Positions 50,244-64,000 of a stretch of 64,000 nucleotides of DNA are shown here, piece by piece. Origin of the DNA: Methanobrevibacter sp. V74. Its GTDB lineage: Archaea; Methanobacteriota; Methanobacteria; Methanobacteriales; Methanobacteriaceae. Below the pieces are notes generated by a model, which saw only the letters and a program-made list of their open reading frames with translations, ran no database searches and was not told the origin of the DNA. The stretch covers positions 1 through 64,000 of the forward strand of contig NZ_CAUJAN010000004.1 in NCBI RefSeq assembly GCF_963082495.1, written 5' to 3'. Positions within the stretch are counted from its first letter, which is position 1. Every line of letters begins with the position of its first letter. The position numbers and the translations under genes were made by a program.

Positions 50244-51704
50244 TTACATCAATGAAAATATTTTTATTGGCACGAATATTACATTATCAACTTTTTCAAT
50301 TGTTTTTGTTGTATCCGATATAACAATTCCATGTGGAGATTTATACCTCCTTATCGCATCCTTAATTTGATTATCATCCTTATTACCATACCCCACTTCT
50401 ATTGGAATTACTTCATCAAAATCTTTTTTTATTATAAAGTCAACCTTTTGTTTTTTCACTTTATGGGTGTCGTAGAATATACTGAATTCAAAGAACTGTT
50501 CACTATTTTTCAGGTTGACAAGGTTTGATCCGACTAATGTTTCAAGCAATATTCCTTCATATTCTGTTAAGTTTATTGATGAAAATCCAAATTTTGTATT
50601 TATTGCATGCATTATGCTTGGTGTTGCGAAATAATATTGCCATGATTTTTTTGCTCTTGCATTTGCACCAGCATAGGGTTCTATGTGAAATATCAAATGA
50701 GTCTTTTCAAGCAAGTCCATTATTGTACTAACAGTTCCCGCAGAAGTTTTGATTTTATTTGCAAGTGCATTTTGTGAAATGTCCCCAGGATATTTTTCCG
50801 CTAAAAATTTCATTAATCTTAATGCATTTGTTTGTGTATTTGCAGTCAGGTTATTCATTGTCCCTAAATCTTTTGTTACTACAGTTTCAACTGAGTAGTA
50901 TAATTTTTTAAATGCATTTCTGTGATTCGTATCATGCATCACTGATGGAAATCCACCAAATTTAAAATAATTATCCCAATCCATTGAATGATAATTTTTT
51001 AGATTTAATAAATCCTGATTTACCTGCTTTTCTTTTATTATTGCATCATCAACATTACCATTAAATACTAAATCTATTAAATTGTTGGAAATGTCTGTGT
51101 GATAATTATATTTTAATTTTAAGTGTTGTGAATAATTTAAGGGAGTTATTGGATATCTTATCATCCTTCTTGCAGCTTCCGCACTATATTCAAGATTTAT
51201 TGCTGATGAACCTGTGAAAATCGCAAATATGTTTTTAGATTTATCAGTGATTATTTTACCTGAAATTGACCAATCTTTATCAAAGTGTGATTCATCAATT
51301 AATAAAAATAACTTTTCATCAAGTGTTTGTAGTGATGAGTTGTGAAATGTTTTTAGATAATATTTGATGGTATCATAGATGTCACAATCTTCTATTTTAT
51401 TTAATTCTTCACAGGAAAAATATAGTATCTGCTCATACTTGATATTTTTTATATTTAACAAATAGTCATATATCTGAAATAGGATTGTTGTTTTTCCAAC
51501 ACCTCTAAGACCAGGCAATACAATATAACGATTAACATTATTTCCATCAATGAATTCATCTATAAATGTTTTTATTTCTTCAAAATCATTCCTATGGTTA
51601 AATTTAACACCCATATTTGATAATTCATTGTTTAAAGATAAAGGAGTATCTGTTATTTGACTTTGTAAAAAATCATGAATTGAATCTTCATTTTCAGGAT
51701 TCAT
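50244..51704 (-). CDS. AAA ATPase with DUF4143-like C-terminus
   Basis: 485 residues from ATG 51704 (GAGGTGG ribosome site). Walker A PGLRGVGKTT (about 67-76), Walker B LFLLIDESHFD (about 140), sensor TGSSA, and a winged-helix segment (DISQNALANKIKTSAGTVST). The C-terminal domain ends in a PD-(D/E)XK-like strand pair (KVDFII, EVIPIEVGYG). This is the AAA_14/DUF4143 group common in archaea, often in several copies and associated with mobile DNA. Function unknown. Intact, unlike most neighbours. Confidence 0.82.
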   Translation of the reverse strand: MNPENEDSIHDFLQSQITDTPLSLNNELSNMGVKFNHRNDFEEIKTFIDEFIDGNNVNRYIVLPGLRGVGKTTILFQIYDYLLNIKNIKYEQILYFSCEELNKIEDCDIYDTIKYYLKTFHNSSLQTLDEKLFLLIDESHFDKDWSISGKIITDKSKNIFAIFTGSSAINLEYSAEAARRMIRYPITPLNYSQHLKLKYNYHTDISNNLIDLVFNGNVDDAIIKEKQVNQDLLNLKNYHSMDWDNYFKFGGFPSVMHDTNHRNAFKKLYYSVETVVTKDLGTMNNLTANTQTNALRLMKFLAEKYPGDISQNALANKIKTSAGTVSTIMDLLEKTHLIFHIEPYAGANARAKKSWQYYFATPSIMHAINTKFGFSSINLTEYEGILLETLVGSNLVNLKNSEQFFEFSIFYDTHKVKKQKVDFIIKKDFDEVIPIEVGYGNKDDNQIKDAIRRYKSPHGIVISDTTKTIEKVDNVIFVPIKIFSLM

Positions 51705-51724
51705 AATAATCCACCTCTTTAATA

Positions 51725-51769
51725 ATATATTGAATGACAAAATATAAATACTTATTCAATATATTGAAT
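51725..51769. promoter_or_regulatory. Possible operator upstream of the ATPase gene
   Basis: A 16-base palindrome attcaatatattgaat (51754-51769) and a second atattgaatga at 51726-51736, just upstream of the ATPase start. The arrangement suggests a dimeric regulator site; in AT-rich DNA this could be chance. Confidence 0.35.
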
Positions 51770-52246
51770 GATTATATATAAAAGAATATTCAATAAAATC
51801 TACAATATTGGAAAATTTATTACACTTTAAAATGTTTATAACAAAGACAATATACTGAAATAACAATACAAAATATAAACCCCCACCAAAAGAATGCAAA
51901 ATGACCTTGAAAAATAATCATTCATAAAACTTATTTAAATCAAATAAAACAAAAAACGTTAATTTTCAAATTTAAAACTTTGCATTAACCTAAAATAAAT
52001 AAAAAATAATATAAAACAATCAATAGATCATCTAACCCTAAAAAATCAATTAATTTTTTGTTGCCCGTATACTATACAAAATATTTACTACTTTTCGCTC
52101 TCAAATTATAATATAAAACTAAGAAGTATATATATTTTTATTACTTTTATTTTTACCCATTATTTCAAAAATTTTATTACTTGTTTTATATAAGAAAATA
52201 TAATAATTAATATAATAAAAGTGGTGATGAGATGGTACGGAACTTT
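51770..52246. other. Intergenic stretch
   Basis: Very AT-rich; no gene or repeat recognised. It presumably holds the promoter region of the ATPase gene. Confidence 0.45.
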
Positions 52247-53361
52247 TTATAATCTATTTGAGATAGGAGTTTTAGTACTTTTAGAATTTTCATTAAGGTA
52301 ATGTTCAACAAGAATCATGTTTATTTTTTCATCTACAAATTTCGATATTTGTCGAGTATTAATTAAACTCTCAGAAGATATCCTTTAAAGTAGTTAATAA
52401 TTTCTTGGGAATCAATTAATTCTTTATCTTCATCACTTAATAACTCATATTTTTTATTAACTTTATTTGTGAGAATTTTGGTTATAGCATCATTATTTAA
52501 TTTTTTAAATTCAATTATTTTATCAAATCTAAAAAATAGTGGATCCCCTATATTCTTTCTAATGTCTTTAATATTAAGATAATTTGAAGTGCAAATAATA
52601 ATTGAATTTTTCAACGGAACTTTATAATTTGAATCTTCAAATATGCCTTCATCAAATAATTGATAAAAAGCATCATGGAAAACATTAGCTGCTTTATCAA
52701 ATTCATCCAATAAGATTATATTGGATTCACGTTCGAGTAAATCTCTTGCAAAAGACGCTTGCATATGAGCTCCACCAAAAAGGTATTCAGAAAATTTATT
52801 ATTTTGAAACATTGAAAATTGTTTTCTAAATAATTCATCGCCTACAATTTCAGATAAAAATTTTGCTGTTTCAGTTTTTCCAACACCTGATGGTCCATAA
52901 AAAAGCAAACATATAGGTTTATTTCTATTATATCCCATAAGTAAATCATATAATGAAGTTAATAACTCATCTTTAACATGATTTTGGCCCACTATTCTTT
53001 CACTGAACTTTTCATTAATCCTAAGAAACTTTTCGGAGGTTAATTTAGGATAATCATAAATTTCGATTGTTACATCATCATAAATGTTTTCTATCAATCG
53101 TTTAATATTTTCTGGAGGGTTTTGAAGATAAATTTGGTCAAATTCATCTGCTTTCAAAATCATATCAAAATTTTGTATAGCGCTTTCACTTATTCCAGAA
53201 TAATTTTCAGAGTATCCTACTAAATAATCAAAATACTCCAAAGGCCTATTTATTTTGTTATCTACAATTTTCACAAGATCATTTAATAACAAACGATTTC
53301 CAGAAGGGATGTGTTCTTCAAAAGCTTTTTTAGGGCCAATGAAAATGTTTATCTCAACCAT
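52247..53361 (-). pseudogene. Clp-type AAA+ ATPase, frameshifted near the end
   Basis: Walker A YGPSGVGKTETAKFL (about 150), Walker B ILLDEFDKA (about 212), sensor SNYLNIKDI and arginine-finger region DPLFFRFD: the ClpA/ClpB/ClpX-like unfoldase core. A unique N-terminal ~120 residues precedes it. The frame stops at 52363, but a one-base skip at about 52378 gives ISSESLINTRQISKFVDEKI and a stop at 52247, the expected C-terminal small domain. Start overlaps the upstream gene by 8 bases. No protease partner is nearby, so it probably remodels a protein, perhaps its operon partner. Confidence 0.78.
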
Positions 53362-54113
53362 GTTGAACCCCCGCCAAAATTACATCATAAACTTTAAGTT
53401 TTGTATTACAATCATGTTTATTTTCTAATTCTTTGATATTATTTGCTATATCTTCGTAAGGTGTTAATTCATTGGAAATATCTAAGAGATATTCTTCAGT
53501 TTCACCGACTAGGATGCCGTAATAGGTTAAATCCATTTTAGTCAAATCTGCAAGTGTGTATTTATTTCTAAAAGAAGCAATATTAAATCTTAAAACAACT
53601 TTATTTTCACCATATTCTGCAATCATCTCATAATATCCTTTTCCACCTTCAAAGACATTGTCCATGGAAGAAATATCAATTGGGATTGCAATTCCGTCTG
53701 CTAACTTATCAGAAAACATCTTTAAAAATGGAGTGAACATCTTAAAGTAGGCAAAAGAATTGGGATATGGTCTGATAGAATAATTGTTGAATTCACGTAT
53801 TTCACTGTCATCAAGTTCTTCAATGAAATCACTTAATAAAGAGTTAGTAATAGTCTTTTGAATAAAACTACCCTTCATAATTTTCATAACTGAGTTCCCC
53901 TTCCGCTTTTGCCGTTCCAATTAAAAAAGGTAATTTAGCCCATAATTTTCCTTTAAGAGACAAATCTTTAATTTTATCAGTTTTACCTAATTCCTTATTT
54001 ATTTCATCCAACATACCACCATTTTTAATAATTAAATAATCTGTTGCTGAAATTTCATCAAAATAAATAATTTTTATAACATTGGATTTATTTTCATCAT
54101 CATTACTCATCAT
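53354..54113 (-). pseudogene. DUF6414-like protein, frameshifted
   Basis: First frame (54113-53868): VIKIIYFDEISATDYLIIKN, then LPFLIGTAKAEGELSYENYE. Second frame continues SFIQKTITNSLLSDFIEELD to 53354. An extra G in GGG at about 53872-53874 explains the break. The IIYFDExSATDY...GG opening matches my memory of the DUF6414 family; joined length is about 250 residues. Forms a translationally coupled pair with the AAA+ gene. Confidence 0.65.
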
Positions 54114-54465
54114 TACACTACCCGGTTATTTCAATAAATTTAATACAATTCTTCAATTTTATGAAATTTAATTTTTTAAAATTTTCGACTAACTCATTTT
54201 TTCTAATTTACAATTAACCTAAAATATTTGTCGTTAACTCATTTTTAGTTTTTAAAAAAAAATTCGTATAAAATCTGATGGGCAGTAGGTATTGCCTTTA
54301 CATTTCATTATGGTTGGTTGTTGCCATTTTACTTTTTTCTTGGTATAATATTATGTTAATGCTTGTATAATTATTGTTCGGTAAAATGCGAACTATATTG
54401 TATAACAATATAAATTTATTATATAATTTATATAATTATAATAATAAACAATATAATAAAATATA
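54114..54465. other. Intergenic stretch
   Basis: AT-rich spacer with near-repeated cgactaactcattttt / cgttaactcattttt segments (about 54186-54250). It is the likely promoter region for the DUF6414-AAA+ pair. No gene. Confidence 0.4.
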
Positions 54466-54473
54466 AGAAATGA

Positions 54474-55824
54474 GACTCTTTCAAAAACTTTGTTGATTTT
54501 CAAAATCCTTTTTGCGATTGTCATTCCAAATTAAATCTCTGCGATAGATTCGTTTTAAAACACCTCGTTTGGTCTTGAATGTTCTTTTTCTAGATTTTGG
54601 CATTGTTTTTTGGAAGGCATTTTCAATTTTGTTACTTGTTTTTTCAATTCGTTTATCTTTTAAGTGATGAATAAAGCTTTTATATCGAGGAGTGATTGAT
54701 TTTTCTGATTATTTTGTAAATAACTGGATGAAAATCATCTTTGCGATAAATTAAAGATTGTACTTCATTTTTGAATTCATCGTAATCATTTAAATCGAAT
54801 AAATCTTTGATTATTTTCAGTTGTTTGTGGCATTCTTGATATTCTTCGTCAGAAATGAGATTTTTATCTTTAAACGTAAAAGTTTTTAATTGTTTATTTA
54901 AACTTTTTTTAGTATGGAAAATACATAATTGGTGTTTAAAACCTAGTTTTGGTATAATTGAGGCATATTTTTTATCTAAATCTGTTGTGATTGCAATTTT
55001 ATTTTTATTTACTGTAGATTCTCTTAAAAACTTCTCAACAGTGTTTTCATCTTCAGTATCGTAAATTGCATCGGCTACGATGCAATTTGAAATTGAATCA
55101 AGTAAGGTGTGTCGATATTTCCATTCTCCATTGATTTTTATCCATTCTACATCAAAGACATAATATCCCGAGCAACGACCTAAATCAAATTCTAAAATGT
55201 TTTCATCAACAAAAAGCCAATTTTCAATCGTTTGATGTGAAACTGTTATTCCAAAGAATTTTTTAAAAGATTTACAAACATTTTTCAAGCTTCCCAGATA
55301 ATCTGAAATTAAATGCTCTGATTTACTTTTCAATTCATTCGTAAAATTACTGTTTTTATCAACAAGACTTGTTAAATCAGTTTGAAAGGTTTTACCACAA
55401 CGTTTACAAATATAACGCTGAACTTTCACCTTAGTTTTGCCTATTTCTTTAAATACTAATGTTCTTTTTGTAAAACCATATTTAACTACATGACGAGTTC
55501 CACAATGAGTGCATCGAGCTAAACTCATTTTAAAATACGGAACATCCTTCTTAAAACTCAAATCAAAAGATTTCAGAGCCTTTTGACAGGATTTAAAAAT
55601 TTTCACAAAACGAGGATCTGAAAGGACAAATCCATCATTAAAATCACAAAATATATATTGTTTAACATCTAAAATACTATTTGGAGTATTTGTTTTTTGA
55701 TTAGGCATAATAAAAACTTTTACTCCCACCTATTTATTAAATTTAACTATTTTTAGACAAAATTAAAAATTCCAAACTAATTTTCATCAAAAAATTTCAA
55801 ATCAACAAAGTTTTTGAAAGAGCC
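54474..55824 (-). mobile_element. Insertion sequence E1 with 8-base target duplication
   Basis: Ends gactctttcaaaaactttg / caaagtttttgaaagagcc, flanked on both sides by agaaatga (54466-54473 and 55825-55832), a perfect target duplication. Related to but distinct from copies A-D. 1,351 bases. Inserted just upstream of the portal gene start. ISM1/ISNCY-type by ends and 8-base duplication. Confidence 0.88.
54481..55708 (-). pseudogene. Transposase of E1, one frameshift
   Basis: Start ATG 55708 (MPNQKTNTPNS). N-terminal zinc ribbon (CTHCG, CKRCGKTF), DDE core (FDVEWIKIN, ITTDLDKKYASI, HQLCIFHTKK) intact, then a frameshift after KIIRKIN. Copy E2 shows the correct continuation SITPRYKSFIHHLKDKR and SNKIENAFQKTMPKSRKRT. 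One extra A (TTTTT for TTTT on the plus strand at about 54700) is the only lesion. Confidence 0.85.
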
Positions 55825-55839
55825 AGAAATGATTATTAT

Positions 55840-57139
55840 GGGAATTACTGATTATATTAAAACAAGACTATTGAATAATAGGGTGGAACAGTACAACACC
55901 AAGCGCAGCTATTGGGGTGAAGATGAAAGACAACCTAGAACTGATGGAATAAATACTGGCCTTGACTTGCCGGATGTGCTTCCGCCAGTTATTAATAAGA
56001 CAATAGCTAATGCACGTTATGCTGTTAAACTTGACGGTTATACTTCAGGTATATTGAAAAACAGAATTGATAAAGCTAATGTTAATATGGTGCTTGTTGA
56101 TAAGGAAAATAAATTATCTCAAGAGCAGAAATTGACATTAATTTTGTGGACCAGAAAAATTGACATTTCTCAAGTTGCTAAAAATATTCTGCAAGGTGGA
56201 ATGGTTGATGGGGAAGGTCTAATTAAACCTGTACAACGTTGGGATAAAAGCATTGGCAAATACATTAAACCTGTATTTTTAGAAATAGGTGCACACGGTT
56301 ACGGATTAAAAAAAGAGTTTAATGATGATAATGAAGTGCAGCTATATCTTCATGAAATGCCTAAGGATATTGTTGCTGGATCTCCTGAAGAGTTTGATAA
56401 TTATGTTAGTGTTGAAGAAGGAACATTAACGGTCAAGTATGAACCTGAAGATGTTATTAACTTCATGTATAATGAAATTTATTGTGAAGCTCAAAGCATT
56501 ATCCTAAATTGCCTTGATGATATATACCACAAGTGTAATTTGGAACGAAATCAAGTGGAACGTATCAACAAAGATAATATTATTGAAGTTAAACCTGCAA
56601 TGGATGCAAACGGTCAACCTTATATTACTGAACTTTCATCTACTGCTAAGGAAAATCTTTATGCTGATTATGGAACTACTACCGGAAGTAATGTAGCTAT
56701 TGTGCCTCCAGGAATTGAAAGTAAAATCTTAGGGGGTAACAACTACCAGTCTGACTATACAAGGCAAACCGAAATCTTTAGGAATAATATTTTAAGAACT
56801 TTTGTAACTCCTCAGTCTCAGGCAGGTAATGAAAAATCAAATCAGAATGTTGCCGAGTACATTAATGATTCAGCTATCACTGGGTTTATTGTTAATGTGG
56901 CCAACGACCAGAAATGGGTGTTAAAGTATTGTAATCAGCTATTGAATATGCAACTGGAGCTGATGGGTATTAGTGAAAGTTTAGATATCTACTTCAGCTA
57001 TTCAAGAGATGATGTTTTAAGATACATTATGGAACTTTCTTCTGAAGGTGATGAAATCTATAAAAATTATCTCAGTAACTTTGAGGAAGAACAGCCTGTT
57101 GGTGAGAGGATTGTAACTGATGCAGGTGTTGAAGTATAG
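55840..57139 (+). CDS. Virus portal-like protein, standing alone
   Basis: 433 residues from ATG 55840 (MGITDYIKTRLLN). Portal features: N-terminal DLPDVLPPVINKTIANARYA, a long alpha/beta body, the clip/stem-like region and late SQAGNEKSNQNVAEYINDSA, as in SPP1-type portals. Portals form the dodecameric DNA gate of tailed-virus heads. Before E1 inserted, the gene had its own AT-rich upstream region rather than a terminase gene. No capsid or protease gene follows; the next gene is convergent. So it is either an isolated remnant or a retained single gene. Confidence 0.75.
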
Positions 57140-57167
57140 TTTAAGAAATGAAATGACCAACGCACTA

Positions 57168-59450
57168 TTAATTATATTTATCTAAGAAAGTTGGTCCATC
57201 ATTCTTTATTTGCGAAAACGGAAGTATATCTATAGGTGTTTCCTTTAAATAAATTATAGATAACTCTTGGGATACAATAAAAAATGAAAAAACTTTATAA
57301 TCTTTTAAATCATGCCCAATTTTATTGCCTAATTTATCTAGATTATTTTTTATCCAAATATCTCTTCTTTGGTGTTTTTTTATCCATTCTTTATTATCGA
57401 AAAATTTTTCTATTTCATGAAAAATCTCACGAGGATTTCGTGCACCTTCAATATCTTTGCATTCAATTGAAAATAAATGTTTTTCATTGTTATCTAACAA
57501 TAAAATATCAATATCACCATATTTTGGATTGGCTTTTACTATTTTATCTATCTTCACATTTTGTTTTAAATAAAATTTTTCAGAGGCATCTAAATTATCT
57601 TCAAACCATTTAAAAACTCTTTCATTAAACTCTTTTCCTTTTATATCCCCCATTTTACCAACAAATGACTTGAATTTTTTTGAAGAATTATCAGTTTTAT
57701 ATAATCCTTTAAAAATTAAATGTAATAAATCTGAAAAGGAATGAAGAGCATTTCTAAAACCATATATCACTGTTTCATCTTCATTATTTTTAATAATTAA
57801 AGGTTTTAAATGATAAGATAAAGGTCTTCTAAAAACCCATGGATTGATATCGTTTTTACTATAACCTTCAGGAGGATTATCCCATTTTTCGCGATGACTT
57901 AATGAAAAATTTTCTATGGCTTTCACTGATTTTTCATATTCCCATTCTAACTCACTTTTCAAAATATCTATTAAGTTAGATTTAGAGATAACAACAACAT
58001 CTTTTTCGTCATCTACAGCTAATTTTATTAGTATGGAAATAAAATCAGCATAGTCCGTTAAATTAATTCCAAATTCCGATTTGAATGCCTCTTCTTCTTC
58101 ATCACTTGGGTTTTCTCCACCATCATTATAATGAAGGATATTTATAGAAAGATTAATCATATGTTCTAATGTTCTTTTAGTTCTAAAAGTATCAAGAATA
58201 TCATCTAAATTAGTTTCAGTTCCAAAACGACCGGATTCTAAAGGAGTGATTTCGAAATCCACATGTTCAGATTTTATATAATCACTGCTAAATGCCCATT
58301 CAATATAATTATTGGATAAAGCCATTAACTGGTCAAAGCTTTCCTTCGATATTTTTACTTTGCTATTAAAGTTTTGTTCCGCAGATAAAAGTTCTATTAA
58401 AAACCTTGTTGGCAATCCCATTTTATCTAACTCATGCTCTTCATAGACAATTTCTTCCAAAACGCCAGAATCTTTATCATAATTATTAAAATAGTATACA
58501 TTATTAAATGATGACCGGGCAAATAGAATATTTTCATAATTTAAAATTAACTTTTGGATAAGATCATCCCAATCATATTTCGCAATTTCTTTTTTAATAC
58601 AATCCAGATAATATCCAACAATTCTATGGCTTAGTTCGATAGATTGGTCTTTAGTTAACTTCTGATTATAATCATACTCACATTGGACTTTATTTACTAA
58701 GCCATCCATTGCTGATTGGACATTATGTTCTTGCAATAATCTTATTTGATTTTTTACAGGAATATTATTGATATCTTTAGAAGTATAAATTAACATGTGT
58801 TTCTTTAAGTCGGAATGTGATTTTTCATCGATAATTTCACATCTGCGTTCTTCGGTTAATGTATTTTCTAAACTATTTTTTTCTAATAACTTTCCAATTA
58901 GTTTTAAAATTTCATCCATTAAAAGCAGGTCTGCTTCATTATTTTTCTGATTTGCTATAGGTTTCAAATATTTACTAATTTTAAACTTAATTTCTGCCTC
59001 AGATATATTGCTAGAAATAATTAAATTTTCTTTAATGTTATTTGTTATTTTAATATTCAAATCTAAATCATTATCTTCTTCAAGGCTAAATGAAATTAAA
59101 ATAGGTCTATCATTTAATGGTTTCAAATCTTTATAAAGTTCATCACTAAACTGCCAAATCCAAAATCCTATAGCTTTAGCAATGAATGTTTCAATGTCTT
59201 TTTCAAATTTAATCCAGATATTTTGATTAATTAATTTGATTAAATATAAATTAGGGGATGTTGCATACATAAAATCATTAATTTTATTAACTAAAATAAA
59301 TTTATCTCCATAAATTTCTAAGTGTGGGTCTTTATCTTTAATTGCTTTTCTTCTTAATTTTTTTGTATATTCTGATGTTTCTTCAAAGGACAAGATATAT
59401 GAGTATGTCCTCTTTTTTATCAGTAACATAAAATGAATGATTTTTTTCAA
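57168..59450 (-). CDS. Large protein with C-terminal PD-(D/E)XK nuclease domain
   Basis: 760 residues; most of the body is unrecognised, helix-rich and acidic. Near the C-terminus GKEFNERVFKWFEDNL (about 610) and GDIDILLLDN ... FSIECKD (Asp about 646, Glu and Lys about 664-666) form a PD-(D/E)XK nuclease core. The frame opens at TTG 59450 inside the end of the SEC-C gene (68-base overlap) and has no ribosome site. Losing one T at about 59388 would join it to that gene, so it is probably the C-terminal part of one protein. No family name known to me; defence role is inferred from nuclease plus context. Confidence 0.65.
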   Translation of the reverse strand: MKKIIHFMLLIKKRTYSYILSFEETSEYTKKLRRKAIKDKDPHLEIYGDKFILVNKINDFMYATSPNLYLIKLINQNIWIKFEKDIETFIAKAIGFWIWQFSDELYKDLKPLNDRPILISFSLEEDNDLDLNIKITNNIKENLIISSNISEAEIKFKISKYLKPIANQKNNEADLLLMDEILKLIGKLLEKNSLENTLTEERRCEIIDEKSHSDLKKHMLIYTSKDINNIPVKNQIRLLQEHNVQSAMDGLVNKVQCEYDYNQKLTKDQSIELSHRIVGYYLDCIKKEIAKYDWDDLIQKLILNYENILFARSSFNNVYYFNNYDKDSGVLEEIVYEEHELDKMGLPTRFLIELLSAEQNFNSKVKISKESFDQLMALSNNYIEWAFSSDYIKSEHVDFEITPLESGRFGTETNLDDILDTFRTKRTLEHMINLSINILHYNDGGENPSDEEEEAFKSEFGINLTDYADFISILIKLAVDDEKDVVVISKSNLIDILKSELEWEYEKSVKAIENFSLSHREKWDNPPEGYSKNDINPWVFRRPLSYHLKPLIIKNNEDETVIYGFRNALHSFSDLLHLIFKGLYKTDNSSKKFKSFVGKMGDIKGKEFNERVFKWFEDNLDASEKFYLKQNVKIDKIVKANPKYGDIDILLLDNNEKHLFSIECKDIEGARNPREIFHEIEKFFDNKEWIKKHQRRDIWIKNNLDKLGNKIGHDLKDYKVFSFFIVSQELSIIYLKETPIDILPFSQIKNDGPTFLDKYN

Positions 59451-60936
59451 TATAAAAACTGAATTTATCTAAAAAACTATTTCCTTTAATATTCTTGCTT
59501 TCTAATAAATTTGCAAATTTAAAAAGAGTCAAACTATCATATTTGCCCGAATTGACGAGTATTTCAAATTCTTCACAGTTAATCATTAATACATTATTAT
59601 ATTTTGGTATTTCTGTATAATGTTGGCGTCCAGTCATGCCAATAAATAAAATTATAAGAATATCATCAATGGATTCATCAGAATATAGATTATTCATAAC
59701 AAAATCTATCCTATTTTTTAGTATAGAATAATATTTTAAATCAATTCTTTCACAAGGTCCATTTTTACCATAATTCTTTAAATTATCGTTAACGAGGATA
59801 CAATAAGCTAACTTATCTGTATCAATTTTAAAAACTTCATCTTTAAATATTGTATTTTCCCATTCAGGTAATTTATAATTGAAATCTTCAAATTGTAATA
59901 TTATTTTTTTTAAATTAAATAAAATATTGGACCATAAATCTTTCTGATAGTTTCTTATAAAATTCTTTTTTTCATTAAATTTTAAAAGAGATAATAAAAT
60001 GTTATGTCTAAGAGAAGTTGATAGTGCTCTAGGAAATATTATATATGTGCTTTCAATTTTTATTAAAGGAGATATTAATAATGGATTTTTGTCTGAAAAT
60101 TCGGAATACATATTCATCTTAAAAAAATCTTCGAAAATATTATTTCTTTTCAATTTTTCTTTAAATTCTTTTTCAACTGATAGAACGCTATTAAAATTAT
60201 TGTCACCCACTTCAATAATAAAATCATCAGCAATGTTGTTGTCAACATTGAAAAAGCCCATATACTCTTTCAATTTATTAGCATTGAGTGTGACACATTT
60301 TTTAAGATAATCTAATTCATCAATCTTGGGGAAAAATATTTCTTGCCTAAATCTATTATCAAAAACTTCATAGCGGCCGTGACCTGATTTTTTTGCAATA
60401 TAATCACTTAAAAATAGAATAAATGTTGAAGTACGATAGAAATGCTTTAGGAATTCATCAGAAAAATTTGAAGAGTTTAAATGGATACTATTGAGTATTT
60501 TTTGCAATACATAATAGTCAGAAGTAGAAAGTCCATTAAATATAACATTATTTTTAAAAAATATGATATTATTTGTAAATAAAGTATCTAAAGAATCTTC
60601 TAACCAGCCTATTGGTCCTTCTGAAGGAAGATATTTTAAAAATAATTCGTTTAAATCATGACTTGTGACTATTTTATTTCCGCAATTAATATTGGAGCAT
60701 GCTATTTGAGTTGCTATTTCAAGTCGAATATATTGTGATTGGTTTTCAGGACATATTGATAATGCTGCCAAAGTTTTAATTAAATCTGTCTGATTATATT
60801 TTGAAAATTCCTCTTTTAATCTTGTTAATACATCATCAGGGAGATTTTTTAAATATCTGTCTTTTTTAAGACAACAATGTTTATATTTCTTTCCACTGCC
60901 ACAGGGGCATGGTTTATTTCTATCACTTTTTTTCAT
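59383..60936 (-). CDS. SEC-C zinc-motif protein, probably N-terminal part of the nuclease
   Basis: 517 residues from ATG 60936. Opens with a SEC-C metal-binding motif (RNKPCPCGSGKKYKHCCLKK, about 5-24), known from SecA and YecA tails and from many defence-type and nucleic-acid proteins. The rest is an uncharacterised helical region. The frame ends ...DKKEDILIYLVL; one base fewer would read through into EETSEYTKKLRRKAI of the nuclease gene, giving about 1,255 residues in total. Orientation is opposite to the adjacent virus-like genes, suggesting an independent cargo gene. Confidence 0.65.
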   Translation of the reverse strand: MKKSDRNKPCPCGSGKKYKHCCLKKDRYLKNLPDDVLTRLKEEFSKYNQTDLIKTLAALSICPENQSQYIRLEIATQIACSNINCGNKIVTSHDLNELFLKYLPSEGPIGWLEDSLDTLFTNNIIFFKNNVIFNGLSTSDYYVLQKILNSIHLNSSNFSDEFLKHFYRTSTFILFLSDYIAKKSGHGRYEVFDNRFRQEIFFPKIDELDYLKKCVTLNANKLKEYMGFFNVDNNIADDFIIEVGDNNFNSVLSVEKEFKEKLKRNNIFEDFFKMNMYSEFSDKNPLLISPLIKIESTYIIFPRALSTSLRHNILLSLLKFNEKKNFIRNYQKDLWSNILFNLKKIILQFEDFNYKLPEWENTIFKDEVFKIDTDKLAYCILVNDNLKNYGKNGPCERIDLKYYSILKNRIDFVMNNLYSDESIDDILIILFIGMTGRQHYTEIPKYNNVLMINCEEFEILVNSGKYDSLTLFKFANLLESKNIKGNSFLDKFSFYIEKNHSFYVTDKKEDILIYLVL

Positions 60937-61132
60937 ATAGTGCACCATGTGGGAAAATAATTTGAATACTTTAATTAACTATTAGAGTATAATTAATTTA
61001 AACTTTTTTGGAGTGTCTAATGGAAGAATTAATGTGTGAATTTTTAATTAGGAGTGTTGAAGTATAATAAATATTTATATAAAATAAGTAATAAAATATA
61101 TAATAAATAATATAATAAAAAGTGATAATGAT

Positions 61133-62480
61133 GACTCTTTCAAAAACTTTGTTGATTTTCAAAATCCTTTTTGCGATTGTCATTCCAAATTAAATCTCTG
61201 CGATAGATTCGTTTTAAAACACCTCGTTTGGTCTTGAATGTTCTTTTTCTAGATTTTGGCATTGTTTTTTGGAAGGCATTTTCAATTTTGTTACTTGTTT
61301 TTTCAATTCGTTTATCTTTTAAGTGATGAATAAAGCTTTTATATCGAGGAGTGATTGATTTTCTGATTATTTTGTAAATAACTGGATGAAAATCATCTTT
61401 GCGATAAATTTTAAAGATTGTACTTCATTTTTGAATTCATCGTAATCATTTAAATCGAATAAATCTTTGATTATTTTCAGTTGTTTGTGGCATTCTTGAT
61501 ATTCTTCGTCAGAAATGAGATTTTTATCTTTAAAAGTTTTTAATTGTTTATTTAAACTTTTTTTAGTATGGAAAATACATAATTGGTGTTTAAAACCTAG
61601 TTTTGGTATAATTGAGGCATATTTTTTATCTAAATCTGTTGTGATTGCAATTTTATTTTTATTTACTGTAGATTCTCTTAAAAACTTCTCAACAGTGTTT
61701 TCATCTTCAGTATCGTAAATTGCATCGGCTACGATGCAATTTGAAATTGAATCAAGTAAGGTGTGTCGATATTTCCATTCTCCATTGATTTTTATCCATT
61801 CTACATCAAAGACATAATATCCCGAGCAACGACCTAAATCAAATTCTAAAATGTTTTCATCAACAAAAAGCCAATTTTCAATCGTTTGATGTGAAACTGT
61901 TATTCAAAAGAATTTTTTAAAAGATTTACAAACATTTTTCAAGCTTCCCAGATAATCTGAAATTAAATGCTCTGATTTACTTTTCAATTCATTCGTAAAA
62001 TTACTGTTTTTATCAACAAGACTTGTTAAATCAGTTTGAAAGGTTTTACCACAACGTTTACAAATATAACGCTGAACTTTCACCTTAGTTTTGCCTATTT
62101 CTTTAAATACTAATGTTCTTTTTGTAAAACCATATTTAACTACATGACGAGTTCCACAATGAGGGCATCGAGCTAAACTCATTTTAAAATACGGAACATC
62201 CTTCTTAAAACTCAAATCAAAAGATTTCAGAGCCTTTTGACAGGATTTAAAAATTTTCACAAAACGAGGATCTGAAAGGACAAATCCATCATTAAAATCA
62301 CAAAATATATATTGTTTAACATCTAAAATACTATTTGGAGTATTTGTTTTTTGATTAGGCATAATAAAAACTTTTACTCCACCTATTTATTAAATTTAAC
62401 TATTTTTTGAAGACAAAATTAAAAATTCCAAACTAATTTTCATCAAAAAATTTCAAATCAACAAAGTTTTTGAAAGAGCC
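61133..62480 (-). mobile_element. Insertion sequence E2
   Basis: Second copy of E1, same orientation, more than 95% identical by eye. Same ends. No matching 8-base duplication: left flank ataatgat, right flank atttaatg. Together E1 and E2 bracket the portal and SEC-C/nuclease genes as direct repeats. Confidence 0.85.
61140..62362 (-). pseudogene. Transposase of E2, two frameshifts
   Basis: Same protein as in E1 (start MPNQKTNTPNS at 62362). A lost C at about 61903 breaks the frame after KSFKKFF, six bases are missing near 61533, and two extra T at about 61411 break it again. The C-terminal 78 residues, broken in E1, are intact here. Lesions do not coincide with those of E1. Confidence 0.85.
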
Positions 62481-62885: not shown

Positions 62886-63134
62886 ATGTTACCTGAAAAA
62901 ACCAACATCAGCGCAAGAGTTGAAATAACACTCAAAAAAATAGTAGAAGAATCTATTTTTACACACAAGGACGCATACGAACTTGGAGCAATGCTAATAG
63001 CTATCGGCGATGCACAGGAAACAATAACACTAATACACAACAATCCTGATTATGAAAAGATTATGAAACAAAGGGAATACAAGTTAATTGAAGAAAGAAA
63101 ACAGGAACTTGAAAGAGAATTAAGGGATTTATAG
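62886..63134 (+). CDS. Small virus-linked protein 2, paralogue of protein 1
   Basis: 82 residues. The stretch LKKIVEESIFTHKDAYELGA aligns with protein 1 without gaps over about 25 positions. C-terminal charged helix (EERKQELERELRDL). Ends 13 bases before the terminase small-subunit start, so probably in that operon. Confidence 0.65.
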   Translation: MLPEKTNISARVEITLKKIVEESIFTHKDAYELGAMLIAIGDAQETITLIHNNPDYEKIMKQREYKLIEERKQELERELRDL

Positions 63135-63147
63135 GAGAACCATCACT

Positions 63148-63958
63148 ATGAGTCGAGTAAATTCAGACATCCATTATTTTTTAGAACAGCATGAACAGGA
63201 AATCATCAACTGCTGCAAGAAGGCAATGAGCAACAAGGAAATCATAGAACTCCTAAAAACAAAAATATGAACGTGAAGTTTCACTCACAACATTTAAGGA
63301 ATTCAAAGCAGGATTAAAAATAACCAAAGGAGATTTCCTGGAAACACTTCTGTATGAAATACAGGTAATGAAAACTCAAGGAGCAACAGATGAAAGTGTC
63401 AGAAGATGGCTGGATGAGGAACACAAACTTGAAGTAAGCAGAGCAACATTCTCAAGATTCAAAAAGAAATATCATCTAACAGATAATGATAAAGACCCAA
63501 GAGCAAGACAAAAAGACGCATTGACAAACAGGGCAATCACACAAAAACAGATAACAGACAATAACGTTCACGAGGACAATATAGATTTAGCTATTGATTC
63601 AATTCTACAGCAGCAGGTCACTGATATTAAAACAGGTTTGGAAAACTTAGATAAAATAACTAAAAATGCAGTTGGCCTTGAAATCGACTTTGAAAAGCTG
63701 GACCTGGAAGTAAGATACAATGCCAATGAAAAAAGTCTGGCCAGATATTTAATCGACATTACCGAACTGAAAATCAGATATCTTGAATTATCAGTTAAAG
63801 CATTTGAAGCCAAAAACAGATTATTCAAGGATGAAATGGACAGACTGTTCAAAAACAGGGTTCTTGAACTGGAAGATAAGAAAATTGAAATCTCACAAAA
63901 GGACATAATGAATGAAATAGAAATCCTCGCAAAGCAAATTGATGATAACAATGTATGA
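63148..63958 (+). pseudogene. Terminase small subunit-like protein, frameshifted
   Basis: ATG 63148 (GAGAAC upstream) encodes MSRVNSDIHYFLEQHEQ and a helix-turn-helix-like CCKKAMSNKEIIELLKTK before stopping at 63268-63270. The second frame resumes at KYEREVSLTTFKEFKAG and runs to 63958 with RWLDEEHKLEVSRATFSRFK (a second DNA-binding helix pair) and a long helical C-terminus. The break is in an A-rich tract at about 63255-63265. Function in DNA recognition for packaging is inferred from architecture and position before the next gene. Confidence 0.7.
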
Positions 63959-64000
63959 TGAAAACAATGAATTCTATTTAGATGCTAGGGATAAAGCTAT
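63951..64000 (+). CDS. Start of the probable terminase large subunit (cut by window end)
   Basis: Only MYDENNEFYLDARDKA is visible; it overlaps the preceding stop by 8 bases. Assignment rests on position after the small terminase. Confidence 0.4.
   Translation, partial: MYDENNEFYLDARDKA

Follow-up and report, generated by a model that had tools for sequence, protein, structure and literature searches.

A frameshifted Upx-like gene and a candidate defense hotspot beside the portal gene of a methanogen provirus

The split Upx-like gene

We analyzed a stretch of 64,000 nucleotides (the window) from Methanobrevibacter sp. V74 (contig NZ_CAUJAN010000004.1, positions 1 to 64,000), whose genome carries two methyl-coenzyme M reductase alpha genes and thus belongs to a methanogen. 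On its reverse strand, beside the portal-like gene of a provirus, lies a gene related to that of the anti-phage protein Upx (here the Upx-like gene), distributed over two open reading frames (ORFs). The N-terminal piece (59383..60948, 521 amino acids [aa]) is 80% identical to residues 1-514 of the closest intact relative, L009 (tblastn), and the C-terminal piece (57168..59450, 760 aa, TTG start) is 91% identical to L009 residues 514-1255; the first ~18 residues of the 760-aa ORF do not align to L009. When intact L009 was searched against the window with tblastn, residues 1-514 likewise fell in one frame and 514-1255 in another. The initial annotation had described two frames overlapping by 68 bases, the second with a TTG start, and the ORF list of the window agrees. 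Its right end, 60936, is the second methionine of the 521-aa ORF, fits the N termini of the relatives, and is most likely the start of the gene. Its proposal that both frames make up one protein of ~1,255 residues is borne out by L009, which is 1255 aa long.

When 138 genomes from the same family were searched, relatives of the Upx-like gene turned up in seven besides that of the window. Six are full-length methanogen proteins of 1231, 1231, 1249, 1250, 1255, and 1273 aa (the two of 1231 aa being near-identical), and each of the six is a single frame with no internal stops. Since these relatives are unbroken, the split is local to the window copy and not a design. The seventh relative, in G011, has 750 aa and 25% identity, and no NCBIfam model matched it at 0.01; with the Upx model, a partial N-terminal match near a contig end was also found in G028. 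Between the window copy and four relatives, the ratio of nonsynonymous to synonymous substitution rates (dN/dS) was 0.20-0.31 in both halves, indicating that these are coding frames and not chance, and that the frame break is probably recent.

The N-terminal zinc motif noted initially is a SEC-C motif, CPCGSGKKYKHCC (60868..60921, reverse strand), which matches Pfam PF02810 with an E value of 5.1e-9 and 36.3 bits, above the gathering cut-off of 20.4, and which is present in the window and in all six full-length methanogen relatives. The predicted C-terminal nuclease was likewise sustained: the PD-(D/E)XK active-site core GDID...ECK (57456..57515, reverse strand) is invariant in 11/11 rows of the alignment of relatives A3, canonical Upx included, and in 4/4 rows of a second alignment (A4). 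In Pfam, nothing of the PD-(D/E)XK kind exceeded the cut-off (HSDR_N_2, E 0.063). The core was recognizable in 17 of the 18 C-terminal domains used for a tree (see below); a Clostridia row has ETK for ECK, and the very long branch G579 has no recognizable GDID...ECK. In a weak structural model of the C-terminal piece, the predicted order of helix 591-618, strands 634-639, 649-653, and 658-665, helix 673-684, and strand 719-726 fits the secondary-structure order of the PD-(D/E)XK core.

Kinship with Upx and distribution of the family

To our knowledge, Upx has so far been described from bacteria. The initial annotation knew of no described system of this form, a statement that did not hold: both pieces match anti-phage Upx models collinearly. 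Against NCBIfam NF042954 (Upx), the N-terminal piece gave an E value of 2.7e-10 and the C-terminal piece 3.2e-31, and against PADLOC Upx the values were 2.7e-9 and 1.4e-26. In bits, one piece scored 107 and the other 38 with NF042954, and the five of six intact methanogen relatives that were scanned scored 138-180, against a curated cut-off of 1900. Profile comparison extended the homology over the full length. A profile of the six relatives aligned with canonical L176 (1091 columns, hhalign probability of 98.2%, E 3.1e-14), with the Acidobacteriota copy L171 over 1157 columns (E 2.5e-68), and with PDB chain 9wuf_A (E 2.5e-32); the methanogen branch is collinear with Upx over its full length. 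L176 itself, a full-length protein from an IMG/VR contig, matches 9wuf_A end to end (2499 bits) and shares 88% identity with L039, a Salmonella fragment that scores 1482.9 bits with the Upx model.

A Foldseek search with the C-terminal model returned 213 matches at E values up to 10, of which only 9wuf ("Cryo-EM structure of Upx") fell below 0.001 (E 6.9e-15, 723 columns, template modeling [TM] score 0.32, root-mean-square deviation 22). The query model was weak, with a mean predicted local distance difference test (pLDDT) score of 49.7 and a four-row alignment (A4, including L176) behind it, and the Foldseek score weighs sequence besides structure; the match therefore backs kinship more than a detailed fold. 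A literature search found no paper on structure 9wuf. With Upx (NF042954, PADLOC PDLC02221, 9wuf), the methanogen proteins share a single chain of ~1,240-1,270 residues encoded by one gene (although the window copy itself is split) and the C-terminal GD[IV]D...ECK...H..R core, and canonical L176 also lies on a prophage-like contig. They differ in the N-terminal SEC-C motif, which full-length canonical L176 lacks. Other SEC-C proteins (SecA tail, YchJ) have the same short zinc motif, and the searches that matched them reported no likeness beyond it.

In the tree of 18 C-terminal domains, the methanogen proteins group in a single clade (100/99) that is separate from canonical Upx (98/96). Because one Acidobacteriaceae protein in the canonical half also carries SEC-C, in its N-terminal frame, the cheapest reading would be that SEC-C was gained twice; a single old origin with repeated loss is a possible alternative. 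In this tally, L038 and L039 were counted as being without the motif, though they are fragments missing their N termini. Among sampled genomes, NF042954 was matched in 8/151 of the window's phylum (its own genome included), 2/199 of the phylum of G151, 1/274 of the class of G153, and 1/291 of the class of G152; in the phylum of G154 it was matched in 0/296, which is not proof of absence. No match in the sampled genomes of those phyla and classes reached the NF042954 cut-off. In one genome from the phylum of G151, two relatives of Upx, 1238 and 1218 aa long, lie in tandem (L171:3569-10947).

The C-terminal piece alone retrieved no relative from viral contigs, and profile A3 retrieved two, L175 and L176. 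These lie at L175:5027-8779 and L176:626-4432 of IMG/VR contigs, the L176 copy near an integrase-like gene. A scan of genome contigs was dominated by the SEC-C motif, and only one of the 80 loci kept (L040) matches over the full length. A plasmid search with L011 gave 25 records, and of the 20 listed, all but H1-H5 match in the SEC-C region alone; a phage search gave one record, likewise confined to the SEC-C region. For canonical fragment L039, no near match was found in an E. coli collection. In literature on Upx, on viruses, defense, and cargo of methanogens, and on SEC-C antiphage proteins, among which few subscription papers were covered, neither this gene nor its site was found described.

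The portal gene, its flanking cargo, and a candidate hotspot

As initially annotated, the Upx-like gene lies on the strand opposite the virus genes. Its neighbor on the forward strand (55838..57139, 433 aa, intact) is designated portal-like by its place and a sub-threshold Pfam match (E 0.051); PHROGs gave no match. It was matched in 41/137 family genomes (fragments and the own genome included). On IMG/VR contig L120, TerS and TerL precede the portal-like gene, which is followed by a scaffold- or protease-like gene; the name "scaffold" for the gene after the portal is our reading. Most full-length portal proteins share 88-98% identity with that of the window, with up to seven matches per genome (fragments included). 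Portal dN/dS was ~0.05 in three pairs, and the gene looks either strongly conserved or freshly spread.

The Upx-like gene occupies a cassette (57140..61066) between the portal stop codon and a 60-bp AT-rich pre-scaffold element (61069..61127, forward strand, nhmmer E 2e-9), with a 13-bp direct repeat, GTGTTGAAGTATA, at both edges. One nhmmer match to the element was found in 42 of 45 loci and none in first-order shuffled loci; the model was built from 22 of those loci, none of the ten occupied loci contributing. An ORF starts within 40 bp after 41/42 copies of the element, versus 217/900 random positions, and in 10/10 cassettes it keeps its place beside the scaffold gene, at the right edge. 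Portal-to-scaffold distances in 52 loci separated 36 empty sites (43-67 bp) from nine occupied ones (917-7033 bp); the remaining seven, among them the window, were without a measurable scaffold partner. The window was counted as occupied because the sequence of L145, L146, and L151 at their empty sites is 100% identical to its right flank (61054-61134). The tally is thus 10 occupied, 36 empty, and six not determinable, or 10 of 46 determinable sites. The loci do not count as independent observations: a single genome contributed several of them, and across 15 kb L159 and L188 share 95% identity.

Cargo at the portal-scaffold site varies. The Upx-like gene occupies it in the window and in G029. 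Members of a DUF3800-like protein family are the cargo in L159, L187, L188, and L198 and, in broken form, in L183, with weak PADLOC matches (E 3.4e-6 for L159, none at 1e-5 for L187). L186 holds a 170-aa protein read as GNAT-like, and L147 a 7-kb insert containing a second portal fragment. Defense content inside this site is limited to the Upx-like gene and the weak DUF3800 matches. A three-gene cassette also occupies the site in L150 (L150:11351-14997), where the 637-aa and 322-aa proteins had no PADLOC match at 1e-3. Direct repeats at the edges of the ten cassettes measured 13 bp for the window, were 14, 9, 8, and 7 bp long in four further cassettes, and did not exceed 5 bp in the remaining five. 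Random pairs gave a repeat of at least 7 bp in 7% of cases and of at least 5 bp in 63%, and these chance rates leave no general rule shown. Between the window and G029, 200-base bins were 92-98% identical across most of the C-terminal half of the Upx-like gene, 75-91% across the N-terminal half, and 83-90% across the portal gene, a pattern suggesting possible recombination inside the cassette.

The second variable side lies upstream of the portal. A conserved block ends 10-100 bp before the gene, usually ~70; beyond it, the upstream neighbors mostly vary by locus, with some loci sharing modules. In the window, this side carries a Dodola system (52363..54113, reverse strand), with DolB at 52363-53361 (PADLOC E 4.7e-120) and DolA in two frames (53354-53920 and 53868-54113; PADLOC E 8.4e-54, N-terminal part 8.5e-11), flanked by pre-portal-like sequence on both sides (52170-52220 and 54411-54473). 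Beside Dodola, at 50244-51740 on the reverse strand, an AAA_14/DUF4143 protein matches the candidate defense family PDC-S01 (E 5.5e-31). A joint PADLOC scan covered 60 proteins (59 of 104 upstream ORFs and one from the portal-scaffold site, recurrent viral genes and near-duplicates being left out) and matched 171 families at 1e-15, a count of families and not of matched proteins. In single scans of 26 upstream proteins, 11 matched and 15 did not at 1e-30, 1e-15, or 1e-5. The upstream matches comprise GajA and GajB (L161), PDC-M68A and B (L185), parts of MkoA (L178, L190), PifA (L192), PDC-S01 (L189), a type II restriction endonuclease and methyltransferase (L191), and part of PDC-M26A (L145). 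In L191, the restriction pair precedes the portal and follows the gene next to TerL; at this place, L120 has only a short gap.

The antiviral hotspots of P2 and P4 (Rousset, Depardieu et al. 2022; PMC9122126) are likewise small variable stretches that hold varied defense genes and are framed by two conserved virus genes, which in the P2 case are gpA and the portal gene gpQ. The loci described here are found in archaeal proviruses instead, they lie both upstream of the portal and between portal and scaffold, and their defense role is predicted. Archaeal head-tailed proviruses carry PARIS, HMA, restriction-modification, DISARM, and other systems (PMC11705971), although the available part of that source names neither a fixed portal-side hotspot nor Upx. 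In rumen archaea, the number of defense systems is reported to rise with that of proviruses (Spearman 0.575; PMC11834463). Taking together the variable cargo with empty sites and the several different defense systems upstream, we favor, with some reservation, the view that a defense hotspot surrounds the portal in tailed proviruses spread through the methanogen genus. Some of its cassettes would fit precisely into the gap from the portal stop codon to the 60-bp element, and half of these would carry a 7-14 bp copy of the portal 3' end at their far edge; others would lie immediately upstream of the portal. A separately evolved, SEC-C-armed branch of Upx would make up one cassette. Such a hotspot would correspond, in archaea, to that of P2, with a comparable position next to the portal, and would be known by its empty sites rather than by its defense content.

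State, origin, and probable role of the Upx-like gene

In the assembly, the Upx-like gene is not the only broken one. A small viral ORF, TerS (two frames), and the start of TerL (two frames, running past the window; PHROG 979) were located at 62886..64000 on the forward strand by tblastn of L120 genes; both insertion sequence (IS) transposases and DolA are also in two frames, while the portal gene is intact. As terminase genes, DolA, transposases, and the Upx-like gene appear broken, provirus decay (or assembly error) is likely, and we judge decay likelier. The provirus also looks rearranged. TerS and TerL follow the portal instead of preceding it (62886-64000, L019), and, compared with L155/L159, a module at contig positions ~66464-74246 has the opposite orientation.

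The most serious alternative is an assembly or sequencing error, with a gene that is intact in the organism and only artificially split, which we consider a minority possibility. Clustered indel errors could split several neighboring genes in two frames, as seen here, the relatives are intact, and dN/dS of the window copy still looks functional. Yet the splits, among the nearby genes, fall in provirus, cargo, and IS genes; moreover, neither the window nor the 22 kb after it yielded a scaffold gene, pointing to a deletion, and this loss together with a second IS copy without target duplication points to real decay.

That the gene serves the virus itself, for superinfection exclusion only or for DNA processing in packaging, for example, and not defense, is improbable. 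In favor of a viral function, it adjoins the portal in both provirus copies (window and G029), on the opposite strand, and so would be separately expressed. Against it, the stretches retrieved around the other five relatives (two of which are near-identical) contain no portal gene, 6/13 of their neighbor proteins scanned match defense families, and 36 virus loci have no Upx-like gene at the portal-scaffold site.

The two IS copies had been taken as a bracket expected for mobile cargo. Copies do lie on both sides, but they appear to be separate insertions: the first (54474..55824, reverse strand), just before the portal, has its own 8-bp target duplication, AGAAATGA, and the second (61133..62480, reverse strand), at the scaffold start codon, has none. 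The copies are near-identical, share an orientation, and flank the portal and the Upx-like gene, as a composite transposon would require; however, their outer flanks differ, the sequence between the gene and the second copy is native empty-site sequence, and in 40 kb of the G029 contig, where the gene occupies the same site, blastn matched neither copy. As the pair has no outer target duplication, we rejected the composite transposon as very improbable, and the provirus appears to be the carrier. L163 has a 93% identical IS relative before its portal. A programmed frameshift or genuine two-gene version scarcely merits belief and was rejected: the Acidobacteriaceae relative L040/L173 also has two overlapping frames (778 and 496 aa), but these split at Upx-model position ~710, those of the window before 562, so that the layout is not conserved at one place, and all six methanogen relatives are single-frame.

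We consider it likely that the Upx-like gene is a frameshifted, presumably inactive version of a gene for a single-chain anti-virus protein of the Upx superfamily, and that a decaying tailed provirus in a methanogen carries it as accessory cargo. The defense role proposed in the initial annotation is probable, given the kinship with Upx and the genes found near the relatives, where 9/16 proteins scanned match PADLOC defense families: type III restriction-modification and PDC-S31 in G122; type IIG, a methyltransferase, and ApeA/PDC-S58 in G029; RmrA in G032; a PD-T4-6/mad6-like kinase in G054; and PDC-S66/TIR-like (weak, E 4e-10) and PDC-S15 in G086. Several points weigh against this interpretation. 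The methanogen branch scores far under the curated Upx cut-off and has no known phenotype; the C-terminal model is weak and its overlay on 9wuf loose; 7/16 of the neighbor proteins had no PADLOC match; the split may stem from the assembly; and, as the defense counts carry no background rate, enrichment around the portal is suggested, not proven.

Upx is credited to Gao et al. 2020 and tabulated under nucleic acid degradation in PMC10855318, and in Pseudomonas it is reported almost only from one island hotspot (PMC12629846). Because of that table entry and the conserved core, we infer an infection-triggered nuclease. When intact, the protein would use its long N-terminal and middle part to sense a sign of infection by another virus, with the SEC-C zinc finger perhaps adding a nucleic-acid or protein contact. 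Sensing would release the C-terminal PD-(D/E)XK nuclease, which may then cut the DNA of the invader, or that of the host too in abortive infection. The provirus would benefit because a protected host keeps it.

These findings would extend Upx to a methanogen branch with an extra zinc finger, for which intact relatives are identified. They also provide a search handle for methanogen defense: the portal-scaffold gap and the region just upstream of the portal in these proviruses, where some cargo has no PADLOC match, in the case of the L150 637-aa protein at 1e-3 and in others only at the stricter 1e-15 or 1e-30.

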